From a virus, in the IMG/VR virus record IMGVR_UViG_3300042923_000202, positions 1-43,419 of that record: DNA of 43,419 nucleotides; one strand, 5' to 3'. Under the pieces are notes generated by a model, which ran no database searches, had not been told where the DNA came from, and was given only the letters and a program-made list of their open reading frames with translations. Within the stretch, counting starts at the first letter, position 1, and each line of letters starts with the position of its first letter. This document shows positions 21,144 through 31,068 of the stretch, piece after piece. Position numbers and translations under genes: made by a program.

Positions 21144-22142
21144 ATGGCAGACGAACAAGACCCGCTCATGGTGGGTGGGCGCATCCCTTACCGGTACAGC
21201 CTCGGAAAGCTCTACACCGATCTGGTCTCAATGATCAGGCGGCAGGGTGCGCGAACGCTGCAGTTCCAGGTGGATGACCAGCAGAACCTGATGTGGAAGT
21301 GGTCTGACGAGAGGGCTTGGCGCGAAATCATGGATTTGGCCGACCTTCCTCAACAGGCTGCGACAGGTCCTGCTGGCCCTCAGGGGCCGAAGGGGGATCG
21401 CGGCGAGCCAGGTCCTGCAGGCGAGCGAGGCGAAACAGGCCCAAAGGGCGACCAAGGGAATCCCGGCACTGCCGGACCCATGGGAAGCCCCGGACCTGCT
21501 GGCCCAGCTGGAATGCCCGGCCCGCAAGGGATCGCCGGACAACCCGGCGCGCTTGGGCCTGCTGGTCCGCAAGGCGAGCTCGGACCTGTAGGCGAGAAGG
21601 GCGACAAGGGTGCTACCGGCAGCAAGGGTGAAGCCGGGCCTGTCGGCCCTGCTGGTCCTACCGGTGCGGCCGGAGCCAAAGGCGATCCCGGAGTCCAAGG
21701 CGTCCAGGGCGTGAAGGGCGATCAGGGTTCGCCCGGCGCAGCTGGTCCCGCCGGAGCCAAGGGCGACAAGGGCGATACAGGGCCGCAGGGACCGATCGGA
21801 CCTGCAGGAGCAAAAGGCGACACTGGCTCCCAAGGATCAACCGGGCCAGCCGGGCCTCAGGGCGCAGCAGGCGCACAGCCTGAAGTTCTATCCGGCACTG
21901 TGGTAACGGCAGGCGCCAAGGTTGCGGTGAAGTTCGCCAAGACCTACGCCACTCCCCCGGTCGTCCAGCCTTCGCCCACTTGGAACAACCAGCAGATGGT
22001 CATCGGCGTAGCCAGTGAAGTCACAACCACCGGCTGCAACATCACCGTCATGCAATCCACTGGAACACTGCTGCTCAACGGCAGCCCATTTGGTACGGCA
22101 CCCGCCGGCACCGCATTCCGCATGATCGCCTTCGGTACATAG
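21144..22142 (+). CDS. Collagen-like structural protein in the head module
   Basis: A 332-aa protein in three parts: a 74-residue N-terminal domain ([23 protein letters not shown]...); an unbroken collagen-like run of 57 Gly-X-Y triplets from Gly75 to Gly243, with many GPAGP and GAKGDKGD units; and an 88-residue C-terminal beta-rich domain ending FRMIAFGT, which could nucleate the trimer. AAAGGAGG precedes the ATG. It sits between the capsid gene and connector genes, not with the tail fibres. SPP1 gp12 is a known collagen-like capsid decoration protein, so a head-surface role is the leading guess; a fibre is the alternative. Confidence 0.88.
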
Positions 22143-24601: not shown

Positions 24602-24629
24602 AGCCCGCCACTGTGCGGGCTCTTTTTTT
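24602..24629 (+). terminator. Intrinsic terminator after the tail tube gene
   Basis: A 7-bp stem agcccgc/gcgggct (24602-24608, 24615-24621), 6-base loop, then C and seven T. It would lower expression of chaperone and tape measure relative to the tube protein. Confidence 0.88.
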
Positions 24630-24647: not shown

Positions 24648-25070
24648 ATGGCAACTGCCAAAGCCGATGCAGCACCGAAACCATTTGCACTGTCTGACTT
24701 CTTCACCCTGCCTGCTCTGGAAGCCGGTAAGAAGCTCCCCCTGACGCTGCCTGATGGCACTCCTACGCCTCATTACCTGATAGTGATCGGCGGTGATGCT
24801 CCCGCTGCACGCAAGGCTCTGCTCGAGGTTACTCGGAAGAATCGCGACCGTGACGAATCCAAGCTGACCACTGACGAGGTCTACGCGATCCAGTCAACTG
24901 GAACCGTCGAATACCGCTCGGCGCTGGTCACCGGCTGGTCGTTCGATACACCGTTTTCGCGTGAAGCCGTCGCGGAACTGCTGACCCAGAACCCGGCAAT
25001 CGCGCAGGAAGTCGAATCGTTCTCCAGTAACCGTACCCGTTTTTTCGCCCAAGACTCGAAGTCCTCCTAA
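24648..25070 (+). CDS. Tail assembly chaperone, short form (gpG-like)
   Basis: A 140-aa protein: LSDFFTLPALEAGKKLPLTLPDGT...HYLIVIGGDAPAARKAL, then ALVTGWSFDTPFSREAVAELLTQNPAI. Such proteins help fold the tape measure. Near its end lies a T TTT TTC slippery heptamer, and the -1 frame stays open to 25468, so a longer G-T product of 273 aa is expected at low frequency. Its position between tail tube and tape measure is diagnostic. Confidence 0.9.
   Translation: MATAKADAAPKPFALSDFFTLPALEAGKKLPLTLPDGTPTPHYLIVIGGDAPAARKALLEVTRKNRDRDESKLTTDEVYAIQSTGTVEYRSALVTGWSFDTPFSREAVAELLTQNPAIAQEVESFSSNRTRFFAQDSKSS
25040..25046 (+). promoter_or_regulatory. Programmed -1 ribosomal frameshift site
   Basis: The heptamer TTTTTTC sits in the zero frame as T TTT TTC, a canonical X-XXY-YYZ slippery sequence, 8 codons before the short-form stop. 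After a -1 slip the frame continues without a stop through to 25468. This is the lambda G/GT arrangement. Confidence 0.85.
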
Positions 25071-25468
25071 AGAGCTTCGAGGCCGACCTCAAGCTGATGC
25101 GAGCGCCGGAAGGCTCCGAGAAAACCATCAAGCAAATCCTCACCCAGGAGTGGGAGAGGACAGGTCGCAAGCCGGCGCAGCTCGACATAGAGCCGATCCC
25201 CGAGGGAATGACCTATCTGGTCGGGCTTTTCTGGGAGTGCAAGCTATCACGCGACTCGCTGACATGGTCTGAAATGGAATCCTGGCTCAAAGTCAGCAAC
25301 CGCGAGCTTGAGTTTGAGGAGGTCCGGGCGCTCATGCTGATGGAGTCAATCCGGCAGCGCGTGTCGGAAACGCCATTGACGGAAGATGAGGTGGCTGCAG
25401 CCAACAAGTCACTGACGAAAGCTCGCCTCAGAGCCGCGCTGCGCGGCGCTGGAAAGCGAAGTGAGTGA
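25046..25468 (+). CDS. Tail assembly chaperone T domain (frameshift product of 24648)
   Basis: About 140 codons in the -1 frame relative to the short chaperone. The peptide (EADLKLMRAPEGSEKTIKQILTQEWERTGRKP...; LVGLFWECKLSRDSLTWSEMESW) has the look of T-type extensions. An ATG at 25097 exists but has no ribosome site, so production as the G-T fusion, joined at 25046, is more likely. The T part normally contacts tail tube subunits while G binds the tape measure. Confidence 0.85.
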   Translation, partial: RPRLEVLLKSFEADLKLMRAPEGSEKTIKQILTQEWERTGRKPAQLDIEPIPEGMTYLVGLFWECKLSRDSLTWSEMESWLKVSNRELEFEEVRALMLMESIRQRVSETPLTEDEVAAANKSLTKARLRAALRGAGKRSE

Positions 25469-25487
25469 GCTTTTAATGCTCTGTCAT

Positions 25488-25518
25488 TTTGGTATTCTCG
25501 GCCCTTCATAAATGAAGG
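25488..25518 (+). promoter_or_regulatory. Probable moron promoter and 5' hairpin
   Basis: An extended -10 (TG-G-TATTCT, ending 25498) lies 27 bases before the secreted-protein gene; a -35 is poor. It is followed by a perfect 7-bp hairpin (ccttcat/atgaagg, 25503-25518) just ahead of the ribosome site. AT content is higher than in surrounding genes. Confidence 0.55.
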
Positions 25519-25525
25519 ATGCCCC

Positions 25526-25852
25526 ATGAAAACGATGTTGATCGCGAGTGTGATCGCGCTTTCTGTAGTTGGGCTTGCCCAAGCCGCCTCAGAAGCATCG
25601 CCGGCACAGAAAGAGCTGGCGAAGTACCTGGTTCAATCGGAAAAGCAGGTCAAAGATGCTGTCTGGATGAATCAGCAAAACCTTTACATCGGCGTAATAA
25701 CCAACGGTAGCGATAGAAGCGGGTTTGCTCAGTACATCTGTGCGGCCGCAGCTGACCATCAGATCAAGCCTAAGATGGTGAAAGTGGTCGACGTCGTGAA
25801 AGTCCAGCGCACAGGGAAATTCGAAGAGCTGGGTCGGGCTTACTGCCCGTAA
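25526..25852 (+). CDS. Secreted moron protein with signal peptide
   Basis: A 108-aa protein with a clear Sec signal: MKTMLIASVIALSVVGLAQA followed by A-S-E, cleavage expected after AQA (about residue 20). The mature part (about 88 aa) has a helix (PAQKELAKYLVQSEKQVKDAVW) and two Cys (YICAAAAD; YCP at the C-terminus), which could form a disulfide in the periplasm. It is flanked by its own promoter-like sequence and terminator, between tail chaperone genes, so it looks like a lysogenic-conversion cassette. Family not recognised. Confidence 0.8.
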   Translation: MKTMLIASVIALSVVGLAQAASEASPAQKELAKYLVQSEKQVKDAVWMNQQNLYIGVITNGSDRSGFAQYICAAAADHQIKPKMVKVVDVVKVQRTGKFEELGRAYCP

Positions 25853-25873
25853 ACGCAGCAAATAAACACCACG

Positions 25874-25898
25874 CCCCGCCATTGAGCGGGGTTTTTTT
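25874..25898 (+). terminator. Intrinsic terminator closing the moron cassette
   Basis: A 6-bp stem ccccgc/gcgggg (25874-25879, 25886-25891), 6-base loop, then seven T. It isolates the secreted-protein gene from the next tail gene. Confidence 0.9.
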
Positions 25899-25913
25899 CG
25901 TCTGGAGAAAAGC

Positions 25914-26312
25914 ATGCAGCCCCATGACTTCTATGTGAAGGAGAAGGCAGAGCAGGGGCGGCGCGTATCGCTATCGAACCCCGACGGCACGTCGAGCAGC
26001 CATTGGATGGTGATTCGATCCGTCTTTTCCGGCCATTACGAGGAAGCAGCCAGGCAGGCAATCCGCAGTGCTGCGGGTGAAGTGATGGAGATTGCTGCTT
26101 CTGGCAGCGCTGCAGATGCCAGGCGTTCGGCAAAGCTGCTGGCCCGACGGCGTAAAGCGCGATTAGTCGCTGCCCTGATTGCTGACTGGTCTCTCACAGA
26201 AGAGTGCTCAGAGCAAGAAAAAACCGACTTCCTGATCAAGGCCCCGCGCTTGCGCAGGCAGATCGAGAAGGTCAGCGAGTCCATATTCGTAGAGAGCTTG
26301 AGCCATGAGTGA
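25914..26312 (+). CDS. Second tail chaperone-like protein (gpG paralogue)
   Basis: A 132-aa protein with the same layout as the chaperone at 24648. D-F to PDGT is 18 residues and PDGT to His 7 residues in both proteins (DFYVKEK...GRRVSLSNPDGT...H here; DFFTLPA...GKKLPLTLPDGT...H there), followed by an A-A-R-x-A helix, an internal W-S and a C-terminal helix. This strongly suggests duplication. It overlaps the tape measure start by 8 bp. TCTGGAGA precedes the ATG. No slippery site is evident. Confidence 0.75.
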   Translation: MQPHDFYVKEKAEQGRRVSLSNPDGTSSSHWMVIRSVFSGHYEEAARQAIRSAAGEVMEIAASGSAADARRSAKLLARRRKARLVAALIADWSLTEECSEQEKTDFLIKAPRLRRQIEKVSESIFVESLSHE

Positions 26313-29300
26313 TACCGCCCGCCTGACGATTGTTGTCGACAGCTCACAGGCCCGCAACGCGAATAAGGACCTTGGAGCGCTCGAGCGCGGCGCGTCTTCG
26401 CTTGCATCCGGCCTGAGAGGCTTAATCGCGCCCTTGATAGGCGTAGCGGGCGCAATGGCGGCACTGAATAAGGCTTCTGAGGTTCAGCGTCAGTTTGACG
26501 TGCTGAATGCAGGCCTGATCACTGCCACTGGTAGCGCCGACAAAGCAGCCGGCGCGTTCAAGGCGCTGCAATCGTTCGCGCAAAAGACCCCGTACGATCT
26601 CAATCAGGCCGTGAAGGGCTTCACCCAGCTGGTGAACCTTGGCCTCACGCCGTCTGAAAAGGCCCTGATGTCCTACGGCAACACCGCTTCGGCGATGGGC
26701 AAGGACCTCAACCAGATGATTGAGGCGGTCGCGGATGCGGCCACTGGCGAGTTCGAGCGCCTGAAAGAGTTCGGCATCAAGGCGAAAGCCAATGGTGACA
26801 GTCTCTCGCTCACGTTCCAAGGCATGACGAAGAAGATCGGGAACAATGCCGCTGAGATCGAGAAGTACCTGACCGACCTTGGGGAGAACCAGTTTGCCGG
26901 AGCCATGGAGCTTCGGATGAAGACCTTAGACGGCGCAGTTGCCAACCTCGGCGACACATGGGATACGACGTTCCGCCTGATCAACGAGGCGGGCCTTGGC
27001 GATGCGATGCAGGACGCGGTAAGGGAGGCTACTGACGCCCTGAGCGAGCTTAACGACCAGATCGCGTCTGGCGAACTGGAGACCAACCTCGCCGCAGTCG
27101 CCGGAAAGTTCGACGGTTTCGGCCGCGACATCGAATACACGCTGGGCGAAATCTCCAAACTTTTCGTCGACAGCACTGGCTATTGGGGGCGCACGCTCGA
27201 CGCCAACGTAGCCAACATGACTCAGACCTTTCGGGAGTTCCCGGAAAACGTCCGCGCTTTCATCCAGGTGATGACCGTTGAGGTCCTGGCAGGCTTCGAC
27301 AAGGTCAAGGCCTACGCCCGGGCTTTCAACGATGGTATCAACGCCATCTTCACCAACGACACGTTCGAGGGTGTTGGCGCCCGCCTTGAAGCAGAGCTGA
27401 ACGTCGCCAATACGGCCCGCGAAGGAACGCTGCAGTCAATATTCGATGAGCGCGAGGCGTCGCTGTCTTCGTTCGCTGCGCAGACGCAGGCCGCCAAGGA
27501 CCAGCGCAAAGCGTTCGACGAGAAGGCAGCGGCAGACGCTGCAAACACGTCTGATCGACTGGCTCAGTTCAAGGTGGTAGGCGAGGCTACCAAACAGCAA
27601 ACCGACGCCGAGAAGAAGGCTGCGAAAGAAGCCGAGTCACTGGCAGCGCGCCAAAAGAAGGCGCTTGATGATCTGGTAACTCAAGCAGACATCAACACCA
27701 ACTCCACCAACGCCATGGCGGACGCCTATCTCGGCGGAGCGACCAGTGTTCGTGAGCTCACGATCCAGCAGAAGGTTGAGGAAGAGCTGCTCAAGACCGG
27801 TGCCGGCGCTCGTTCTCAGGTTGTCGATGCGATCAACAAAGAAGCCGACGCGCGGGACCGACTGGACCTTTCTGAATCCAATGCGGCCCGTCGCGTAGAT
27901 ACGGCGAACACTCTCAGCCAGGCCGCCGCAACTCTCAAAGGGTCATCTGCTCTCGAAGAGTACAACGCCACCAAAGCTATCACCTTGGCTCTGAGCGGCA
28001 AGAAAATCGCAGCCGACAGCGCCGAATATAAGCAGCTGGTCGAAACCACCAAAGCTCAGCTGGCTGCCAACAAAGCGCTCCAGCAAGCCGGCAAGGTTGA
28101 ATCGATTGTCGACCGCTTGAGCCCTCAAACCAAGCTTTTGCGTGACTACACAGAGGAGCAGGAAGCTCTCAATGCGGCGATCGCATTGGGCGAGGGAGAT
28201 ACAGCGCTTTATCAGGCAACCCTGGCAAAGCTGGCAGTTGAGTACGAGCAGAACAAGAATGCAGCAACCGCGTGGGGGCAGTTCACTGAGGGGGCGGTAG
28301 ACCGCGTTGACGACGCCTTTGCTGATGCATGGAAAAACATCGACGAAGGGTTCGATGGGTTTGCGACGAGCCTGAAGGAAGGCTTCAAGCAACTGCTCGC
28401 CGAACTCGCGCACATGGCAATCACCAAGCCGATCATCATGCAGATCGGCGCAGCCATGGGTGTAGGGGGGTTGTCAGCATCAGGCCCGGGCGGAGTTCTG
28501 TCCACGCTTACAGGCGGATCGTCCGGATCGCCCCTGTTGAGCGGAATCAAAACCCTTGCAGACATCAGTACCAGCAGTTTCGGCCAAGCGCTGGGCAACG
28601 GCTGGGCCAGTGGGGAGGGTCTGTTTGGCGGCCTGCAAGGTGCCGCGAGCAACGGTTATAACTTTCTCAGCGGCATATTCGCGGGAGGTGGCGCAGGCGC
28701 AGCGGCGAGTACGGGCGCGGCTCAAGGCGCTGCGGCCTTCGGTTCGCAGTTTCTGGCCGACAGCGGCGCAGCGACTATCTCGTTCCCAGGTGCTGCACCT
28801 GTGGCAGACGCAGCAACCGGGGCGGCGGGCGCCGGCTGGGGCAGCGTAGGCGCTATCGGCTCCGGTCTGCTCGGTGCATACCAGGGCTACAAGCAAAACG
28901 GCCTCAAGGGTGCGGTGGCGACTGGCGGTCTCGCTTACGGCGGTGCCGTGGGCGGCGCGGCGCTGGGCGGGATTGCGGCCGGTGCAATCTCCGGTACTGC
29001 GCTCGGCGCAACCATAGGCTCTGTGGTCCCTGTGATTGGCACCGTTATCGGCGCTGCACTGGGGACGGCGCTCGGCGGAAAGTTGTTCAGTGGCGAGTGG
29101 ATCACCAAGGACATGGGCTTGCAGTTGGGCGTGACCGACGGCGAGCTGACCGCGAACAACTACGAATATCAGAAGAAAAAAGGCGGTCTGTTCTCGTCGA
29201 ACAAGAAACGCACAAAGCTGAGCCCGCTGGAAGATGAGCAGCAAACCGCGATGGAGCAAGCGCTGTCCGGCACTGCTTTCACCGCTGTCGATGCGTTTTC

Positions 29301-31068
29301 CCGCCTGGGCGTTCAGGTTCGCGAGGATGTATTCGACAACTTTAGCGTTGCCATCCAGCAAATCAGCACCAAGGACAAAACCCAGGAAGAGATTCAAGCC
29401 GAAATAACTAAGTTCTTCACTGGTGTCGGCGACTCAATGGTTCAGACCATTGCCGACGCAACCGGCGAACTGAGTCTGAAAAACTACGATTTGGCCGGCC
29501 TGCAAGCTTTCGTACAGACGCTGTTCGACGTCAACGCGGTATTGGAAAAAACCAATATCAAGATGGCTGAGATTTCGGTTGGCGGAGCGCATGTTACCGA
29601 AGCATTGGTTGCGCTTTCTGGCGGCATGGAACAGCTGAACACCAACGCGGCGACATATTACGAGAACTTCATTTCTCAGGCTGAGCGGAACGACGACGTC
29701 CTGACTCAGGTCGGTCGCCAGTTCGCAGCGTTGAATGTGGCGTTCCCGGCAACCCGCGACGGCTTCAAAATGCTTGTTGAGTCGCTGGACGTCACAACCG
29801 ATGTCGGCCGTCAGATGTACGTGACGTTGATGGGTCTAGCAGGTGGTGCGGCATCGGCCTATACGATCCTCGAAGACCGCGCGACGGCTGCTGCTCAGGC
29901 TGCCGCTGATGCTGCTCAAGCGCTTTTCGACAAGATGGTGGGCGCAGCCGGTACTGCTCAAAGCGCTGTCCAGAGGGCAATCGCTGCTGAGCAGAATAAG
30001 GCGACCGCGGCCTACAACGCGCGCGTTACCTCGCTCAACGACATGTCGAGCACGGCCTCGAAGTCTGTTTCGGAACTCACAAGCGTCAGCAGTTCGTTGA
30101 GCAATGCCCTCAAGGCGCTGCGCGGCGATTCCGACGAAGCGGTGAAGATGCTCCAGACGCAGGCCCGCGCGACGTTGCAGTCGGCGTTGGCAACCGCGCG
30201 TTCTGGCGGTTCGCTGGCTGGCTTCTCCGGTCTGGACGATGCGCTGAGTACCGTCAGCGAGAACAACACCGATCTTTACGGATCGATGGAGGATTTCGCG
30301 CGGGATCAGGGGCGCACTGCGAATGTCGTGGCCGAGCTCAACGCCATCAACGGCAAGCAGCTCACGTCGGCTGAGAAAACCGTCAAGGCGCTGCAGGACC
30401 AGCTGGACCAGGCCAAAGCGGCGTATGACGCGCAGATGGCTCAGTTCGACGCTCAGTTGGAGTTCGCTCAGGCGCAGATGGACGCGCTGAACGGGGTCGA
30501 TAACTCCATCATGGGCGTGACCGCTGCGATCAATGCCATGAATGCGGCGGTGCTTGCCGCTCTCAAGGGCGGAGTCGGAAGCGGCTCTGTGCTGACGCCT
30601 GGAAATTCAGCAACAGCCATCGAAACCGCGTATCAGGCGATTCTCGGCCGGGATGCTGATGCGGCTGGCCTTGCTTACTGGCAGCAGCAGCTGGCATCCA
30701 AGGCGATCGGCCTGACCCAGCTTGAAGAAGCCATTCGCAACGCAGCCAAAGCCAACGGATCAATCCCTGCATTTGCTTCTGGCGGTATGCATACGGGCGG
30801 GATTCGTCTGGTGGGTGAGAAGGGTCCAGAGCTGGAGGTCACTGGCCCGAGCCGTATCTTCAATGCCAGCCAGACGGCAGCAATGCTCAGAGGTGGCGGT
30901 GCAAATGATTCGGCGTCAGTCGAGGAGCTGCGCGGCCTGCGCAAGGAGATGGAAGAAAACTCCAAGTACATGAGCGGGCAACTCAAGGCCATGGCAAACC
31001 ACTTGGACGACATCGTCAACGGCGGCGTCCAGATCGTCGGCACAGTCGAAACTAAGGCGGTAGCATGA
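26305..31068 (+). CDS. Tape measure protein
   Basis: A 1587-aa tape measure, the largest gene. N-terminal part: ARLTIVVDSSQARNANKDLGALERGA and QSFAQKTPYDLNQAVKGFTQLVNLGL, typical of long-tail TMPs. Helical coiled-coil regions fill about 340-700. A Gly/Ala-rich hydrophobic segment (about 870-935, GAALGGIAAGAISGTALGATIG...) could insert in membrane. Near the C-terminus (about 1435-1490) is a DUF4214-like unit (AYQAILGRDADAAGLAYWQQQL), then the common IRLVGEKGPELEVTGPSRIFN motif. At about 1.5 A per residue a tail near 240 nm would be expected. Confidence 0.95.
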   Translation: MSDTARLTIVVDSSQARNANKDLGALERGASSLASGLRGLIAPLIGVAGAMAALNKASEVQRQFDVLNAGLITATGSADKAAGAFKALQSFAQKTPYDLNQAVKGFTQLVNLGLTPSEKALMSYGNTASAMGKDLNQMIEAVADAATGEFERLKEFGIKAKANGDSLSLTFQGMTKKIGNNAAEIEKYLTDLGENQFAGAMELRMKTLDGAVANLGDTWDTTFRLINEAGLGDAMQDAVREATDALSELNDQIASGELETNLAAVAGKFDGFGRDIEYTLGEISKLFVDSTGYWGRTLDANVANMTQTFREFPENVRAFIQVMTVEVLAGFDKVKAYARAFNDGINAIFTNDTFEGVGARLEAELNVANTAREGTLQSIFDEREASLSSFAAQTQAAKDQRKAFDEKAAADAANTSDRLAQFKVVGEATKQQTDAEKKAAKEAESLAARQKKALDDLVTQADINTNSTNAMADAYLGGATSVRELTIQQKVEEELLKTGAGARSQVVDAINKEADARDRLDLSESNAARRVDTANTLSQAAATLKGSSALEEYNATKAITLALSGKKIAADSAEYKQLVETTKAQLAANKALQQAGKVESIVDRLSPQTKLLRDYTEEQEALNAAIALGEGDTALYQATLAKLAVEYEQNKNAATAWGQFTEGAVDRVDDAFADAWKNIDEGFDGFATSLKEGFKQLLAELAHMAITKPIIMQIGAAMGVGGLSASGPGGVLSTLTGGSSGSPLLSGIKTLADISTSSFGQALGNGWASGEGLFGGLQGAASNGYNFLSGIFAGGGAGAAASTGAAQGAAAFGSQFLADSGAATISFPGAAPVADAATGAAGAGWGSVGAIGSGLLGAYQGYKQNGLKGAVATGGLAYGGAVGGAALGGIAAGAISGTALGATIGSVVPVIGTVIGAALGTALGGKLFSGEWITKDMGLQLGVTDGELTANNYEYQKKKGGLFSSNKKRTKLSPLEDEQQTAMEQALSGTAFTAVDAFSRLGVQVREDVFDNFSVAIQQISTKDKTQEEIQAEITKFFTGVGDSMVQTIADATGELSLKNYDLAGLQAFVQTLFDVNAVLEKTNIKMAEISVGGAHVTEALVALSGGMEQLNTNAATYYENFISQAERNDDVLTQVGRQFAALNVAFPATRDGFKMLVESLDVTTDVGRQMYVTLMGLAGGAASAYTILEDRATAAAQAAADAAQALFDKMVGAAGTAQSAVQRAIAAEQNKATAAYNARVTSLNDMSSTASKSVSELTSVSSSLSNALKALRGDSDEAVKMLQTQARATLQSALATARSGGSLAGFSGLDDALSTVSENNTDLYGSMEDFARDQGRTANVVAELNAINGKQLTSAEKTVKALQDQLDQAKAAYDAQMAQFDAQLEFAQAQMDALNGVDNSIMGVTAAINAMNAAVLAALKGGVGSGSVLTPGNSATAIETAYQAILGRDADAAGLAYWQQQLASKAIGLTQLEEAIRNAAKANGSIPAFASGGMHTGGIRLVGEKGPELEVTGPSRIFNASQTAAMLRGGGANDSASVEELRGLRKEMEENSKYMSGQLKAMANHLDDIVNGGVQIVGTVETKAVA

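Follow-up and report, generated by a model that had tools for sequence, protein, structure and literature searches.

Known tail chaperones and neighbouring morons

In phage lambda, the G part of the tail assembly chaperone (TAC) binds the tape measure, and the T part of the frameshifted product GT recruits the tube protein. HK97, whose chaperone is represented by PDB entry 2ob9, and most other phages manage with one such G/GT pair. HK97 also carries a moron, gp15, in a slot with a terminator between its frameshifted chaperone gene and the tape measure protein (TMP) gene, which starts right after the terminator. Stenotrophomonas phage A1432 is a siphophage with a single chaperone and the order G-T-TMP; it lacks both a slot and a second TAC. 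Tail assembly and the TMP are also involved in a different kind of prophage moron, the Tab/anti-Tab pair of Pseudomonas phage JBD26: the target of Tab is the TMP, and anti-Tab is encoded by an adjacent late gene (PMC10884400).

The DNA analysed here (the window) is a virus record of 43,419 bases, the genome of a temperate phage in which two related tail chaperones flank a swappable gene for an envelope cargo. Its tail genes run on the plus strand in the order major tail protein (MTP), TAC1, T domain, signal-peptide gene, terminator, TAC2, and TMP. In open-licence papers on chaperone paralogs and morons, no description of the arrangement TAC1-T-slot-TAC2-TMP was found. An initial annotation had proposed two paralogous chaperones on either side of a secreted moron, the kinship being read from the spacing of shared residues. 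The reading frames lie where it placed them, and the spacings are exact: 18 residues separate D17-F18 from the PDGT at position 35 in TAC1 and D5-F6 from the PDGT at 23 in TAC2, and 7 residues separate PDGT from H42 and H30, respectively. Absent from that annotation were the -1 frameshift product of TAC1, a terminator before TAC1, and an 8-nt overlap between TAC2 and the TMP gene. Between the head and tail genes, at 21144-22142, the window also contains a gene with a long collagen-like G-X-Y repeat.

A complete G/GT module and a second, T-less chaperone

TAC1 (24648-25070, 140 aa) is a gpG-type tail assembly chaperone that matches Phage_TAC_4 of Pfam (PF08748, 3e-7) and PHROG 313 (1e-19). Its structural model retrieves 2ob9 as the top row from the PDB (Z 6.7), ahead of YqbN (4.9). 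Together with its surroundings it makes up a complete frameshift module of the lambda and HK97 type, with the same gene order: a slippery heptamer, T TTT TTC (25040-25046), is in frame for -1 frameshifting, and the open -1 frame (25031-25468) encodes a T domain related to Phage_TAC_18 (PF23812, 5e-8), predicted to be made as a TAC1-T fusion. The heptamer is kept as T TTT TTC in the TAC1 genes of the window's type and reads T TTT TTT in a sister type. A search for RNA structure 3' of the slippery site led nowhere (z -1.1). A terminator-like hairpin 5' of TAC1 (24602-24621), confined to the window-type group, resembles the one that precedes TAC2.

TAC2 (25914-26312, 132 aa) is a true paralog of TAC1. 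The two proteins align by BLASTP with 21% identity (E=8e-10), and when the window's record is searched with TAC2, TAC1 is the sole other match (E=1.4e-5). Alignments of 25 TAC2s and 23 TAC1s compared by hhalign gave a probability of 98.9% (E=4e-17) over 119 columns, and AlphaFold models of the pair (pLDDT 84 and 83) share the element order H-E-E-H-H-E-H-H with a 12-residue offset; folds and profiles thus agree, and relatives have paralogs, not unrelated proteins, at the position of TAC2. Against the PDB, 2ob9 is again the top row for TAC2 (Z 7.5, rmsd 4.1 over 99 residues; next row 3.9), but Z values below 8 are modest for both chaperones, and the fold backs the sequence evidence without replacing it. 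Since the best Foldseek match in the PDB reached only E=0.58, weight was placed on sequence profiles and on a second look with VIA-align. TAC2 also matches the TAC of K1H in BFVD (3e-6) and annotated TACs by tblastn down to 1e-8, and separate searches with TAC1 and TAC2 converge on the lone chaperone gene product of the same isolated phages. A search of Pfam with TAC2 returned no match, and its PHROG chaperone matches were weak.

The 3' end of TAC2 carries neither an in-frame slippery site, which rules out a frameshift of its own, nor a T extension. Instead the TMP gene (26305-31068, 1587 aa) begins at once, sharing 8 nt with the end of TAC2 (26305-26312, ATGAGTGA). It is recognized as a tape measure gene from DNA near 26480-26964 that is 73-77% identical to annotated tape measures; residues 1439-1468, near the C-terminus, match DUF4214 (E=9e-7). 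TAC2 lies directly upstream of the TMP gene in all 25 loci measured, with an overlap of 4 or 8 nt. By homology, fold, and gene position, TAC2 is most likely a gpG-type tail assembly chaperone, and it differs from the lambda and HK97 systems in being an additional copy, free of T and of a terminal slippery site, that overlaps the start of the TMP gene. The initial annotation had also considered that the second chaperone might replace the first, which is unlikely with TAC1, its slippery site, and T all intact beside TAC2.

The moron and its slot

The gene between the two chaperones (25526-25852) encodes a 108-aa protein with a signal peptide that belongs to PHROG 7191. It is preceded by an extended -10 promoter motif, TTTGGTATTCT (25488-25498), with the ATG 38 nt further on, and followed by an intrinsic terminator (25873-25892) that ends 21 nt before TAC2. 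The proposal that this is a cassette with its own signals is borne out by relatives, in which the motif is conserved and, at 25 of 26 loci, a terminator stops 19-24 nt short of TAC2. Homologs of the window's moron precede TAC2 in L008/L013, L009/L011, L054, and L057; elsewhere the payload differs, and L086 and L118 have no slot. Judged on sequence, the gene qualifies as a moron on two counts, a putative promoter and terminator of its own, and presence or absence at the same site among relatives.

The motif, generalized as TTTGGTAnnnT, lies just after the T stop or, where other genes intervene, is shifted inward before the payload, whose start codon follows it by 34-39 nt. It occurs 24 times in 38 kb of slots and 11 times in 806 kb elsewhere, a 46-fold enrichment, although a sigma-70 consensus scan of the slot missed the copy at 25488. 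By a simple, crude rule, each of the 24 motif-linked genes (a few from near-identical loci) scores for a membrane segment, signal peptide, or lipobox; among 249 control ORFs, 36 do. The slot is a moron site like that of HK97 gp15, with envelope proteins as its promoter-linked cargo. A single BLASTP comparison of the window's moron with gp15 gave E=0.010, over the hydrophobic N-terminal region, which is not a convincing similarity. In the relative L033 the same slot is occupied by an Imm_superinfect protein (PF14373, E=3e-18), a family different from the PHROG 7191 of the window. PADLOC returned nothing useful for the window's moron.

Antirepressor-like, IrrE/CapP-like, NYN, and HEPN-like genes are present in larger slots as well. 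Three slot genes are defence-like, namely those for an IrrE-like peptidase close to CapP (L114:8867-9349, 4e-25), an NYN-domain protein (L089:7447-8301), and a HEPN-like protein (L121:2696-3085), and in L003, L010, L037, and L122 Arc-like and antirepressor-like genes sit inside the slot of the tail module. The promoter motif often lies in the loop of an inverted repeat (L016:7352-7380, likewise L019, L024, and L033) whose arms change together, as in GCACCGA...TCGGTGC and GCGCCGA...TCGGCGC; this repeat could serve as an operator or form an RNA hairpin. Outside this setting, the P2-like Mannheimia phage PHL101 carries a gene homologous to the window's moron (L007:6001-6330), with its promoter and terminator annotated, two genes downstream of CI, and Escherichia phage K1G has an annotated superinfection-immunity gene beside its chaperone, on the other strand (L067:1636-1827).

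Distribution of the second chaperone

TAC2 patterns recovered 29 viral loci and, in a scan of genome contigs, one locus in Stutzerimonas stutzeri KOS6; where both sides are visible, these loci read TAC1-T-slot-TAC2 followed by TMP. A tree gathers 29 of the 30 second copies into a single clade (support 100/98), and L055, which has only one TAC and the order G-T-TMP, branches as its sister. The exception, L056, groups with the single TACs of other genomes. As loci chosen through TAC2 are unfit for assessing its presence or absence, contigs were rescanned with TAC1 only; the two sets have many contigs in common. In loci of the sister type, a second chaperone stands just before the TMP gene in 35 of 36 (L089 was not assigned): 32 are of the TAC2 kind, L104 resembles L056, and L077 and L092 share a third kind. 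In the window's type, TAC2 occupies this place in 4 of 16 loci, and nine loci with a visible TMP lack it; L113, L115, and L116 were not counted either way. The TMP of L113 is interrupted: its frame ends early, and a transposase-like ORF comes next (L113:12685-13234).

All 12 tail loci of isolates that were opened lack a second chaperone copy, and a search of 50,697 phage records with the sister-type TAC2 returned single TACs only. Two chaperones for one tape measure, which the initial annotation called unusual, are thus unusual for isolated phages but common in prophage and metagenome contigs. A plasmid search gave nothing, a viral scan with the single protein P0001 was unproductive, and a near-identity DNA search of the module gave short TMP matches only.

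TAC2 follows the tape measure and not the cargo

The slot and TAC2 are independent. L086 reads TAC1-T-TAC2-TMP without a slot, the TAC2 start overlapping the T stop; eight loci (L110, L114, L117, L119, L120, L121, L122, and L123) have a slot without TAC2; and L118 has neither. By contrast, TAC2 goes with the type of TMP. Within the window's TAC1 group, the TMP N-termini of TAC2 loci are 76-82% identical to that of the window, and TAC2 is present in 5/5 loci with this N-terminus (window included) versus 0/9 with other types (exact p=0.0005, assuming an independence of loci that does not hold). An origin of TAC2 with the moron insertion, as initially suggested, is contradicted by L086, by the eight slots without TAC2, and by the link to the TMP type, and the idea of a tie between TAC2 and the moron was rejected.

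Distances within the sister group lead to the same association: TAC2 correlates with the N-terminal part of TMP (r=0.83, permutation p=0.0001, too optimistic a value because the loci are related to each other), whereas TAC1 does not (r=0.06), and the loci found through TAC1 gave r=0.87 and 0.08, respectively. Adjacency alone does not produce this correlation, as the adjacent MTP and TAC1 gave r of about -0.1, a control limited by the little variation of TAC1 in the sister group (mean distance 0.14). Along TMP the correlation with TAC2 drops to 0.03 at the C-terminus, a fading that linkage alone would also give. The second chaperone therefore travels with the TMP and not with the cargo gene.

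A probable dedicated chaperone and its alternatives

The best explanation, which we consider probable, is that TAC2 is a T-less gpG-type chaperone dedicated to the translationally coupled TMP and exchanged with the N-terminal half of that protein, the moron sharing only the junction. TAC1 and the frameshifted TAC1-T would be the general chaperone pair and the source of the T domain. TAC2, consisting of the G part only and translated in overlap with TMP, would be an extra, TMP-matched G subunit beside them; it may bind TMP, act jointly with TAC1 and TAC1-T, and protect or organize the N-terminal half of its own TMP, with which it would move between phages as one piece. The moron would lie at the left edge of this piece, at a recombination-prone junction, without accounting for TAC2; it would be an envelope protein that the lysogen makes from the moron's own promoter, probably to exclude superinfecting phages. 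That HK97 and most phages need only one pair counts against a dedicated TAC2. In its favour, the T-less place next to TMP has also been taken by other chaperone lineages (L056:9573-9998 and L104:8721-9146; L077:7713-8117 and L092:7906-8310), apparently by independent recruitment. A broader reading is possible, though we hold it with less assurance: the chaperone jobs would be divided, with TAC1/TAC1-T staying with the tail backbone and the T-less TAC2 serving as a TMP-specific adaptor, in a TAC2-TMP cartridge that swaps the N-terminal half of the ruler and in which at least three chaperone lineages have independently taken this place.

The main rival is that TAC2 is a passenger: recombination would have imported a foreign TMP and, with it, the G-type gene that overlapped it in its former module; T would have been lost, and TAC2 kept mainly through its overlap with the TMP start. 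Such hitch-hiking is possible because of this overlap, and the decay of the TAC2-TMP correlation with distance is in keeping with it, as is the single-TAC sister of the TAC2 clade, L055. Phage A1432, whose TMP matches that of the window, likewise has a single TAC closer to TAC2 (38%) than to TAC1 (27%). Retention of a full-length open frame with invariant residues across the TAC2 clade, at about 40% mean divergence, speaks against a mere passenger, as does the rise of T-less second TACs in other lineages, and we regard this explanation as unlikely.

Less probable still is that TAC2 is a self-protection or interference protein, comparable to anti-Tab or to a dominant-negative chaperone that interferes with how superinfecting phages build their tails. 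The Tab/anti-Tab precedent (PMC10884400) and the defence-like genes of larger slots lend this idea some appeal. That pair sits between terminase genes, shows no chaperone homology, and has another payload. Against the idea, the effect of Tab has been mapped to the C-terminus of TMP, but the part of TMP that TAC2 tracks is the N-terminal half. Moreover, TAC2 is coupled to TMP and lies past the terminator, on its late side, and the promoter-linked payloads are envelope proteins. Finally, that TAC2 arrived with the moron and works on its behalf, for example by renewing the supply of chaperone beyond its terminator, is hardly credible despite its place directly after the slot terminator in most loci, given TAC2 without a slot, slots without TAC2 (HK97 included), and payloads that change while TAC2 remains.

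Returning to the dedicated chaperone, these loci form a natural series, with one chaperone varying in step with the TMP N-terminal half and the other remaining constant, so that the recognition by a chaperone of its own tape measure becomes directly testable. In addition, the slot, in which envelope cargo goes with a single promoter motif and a single terminator position, provides a list of candidate superinfection-exclusion proteins.
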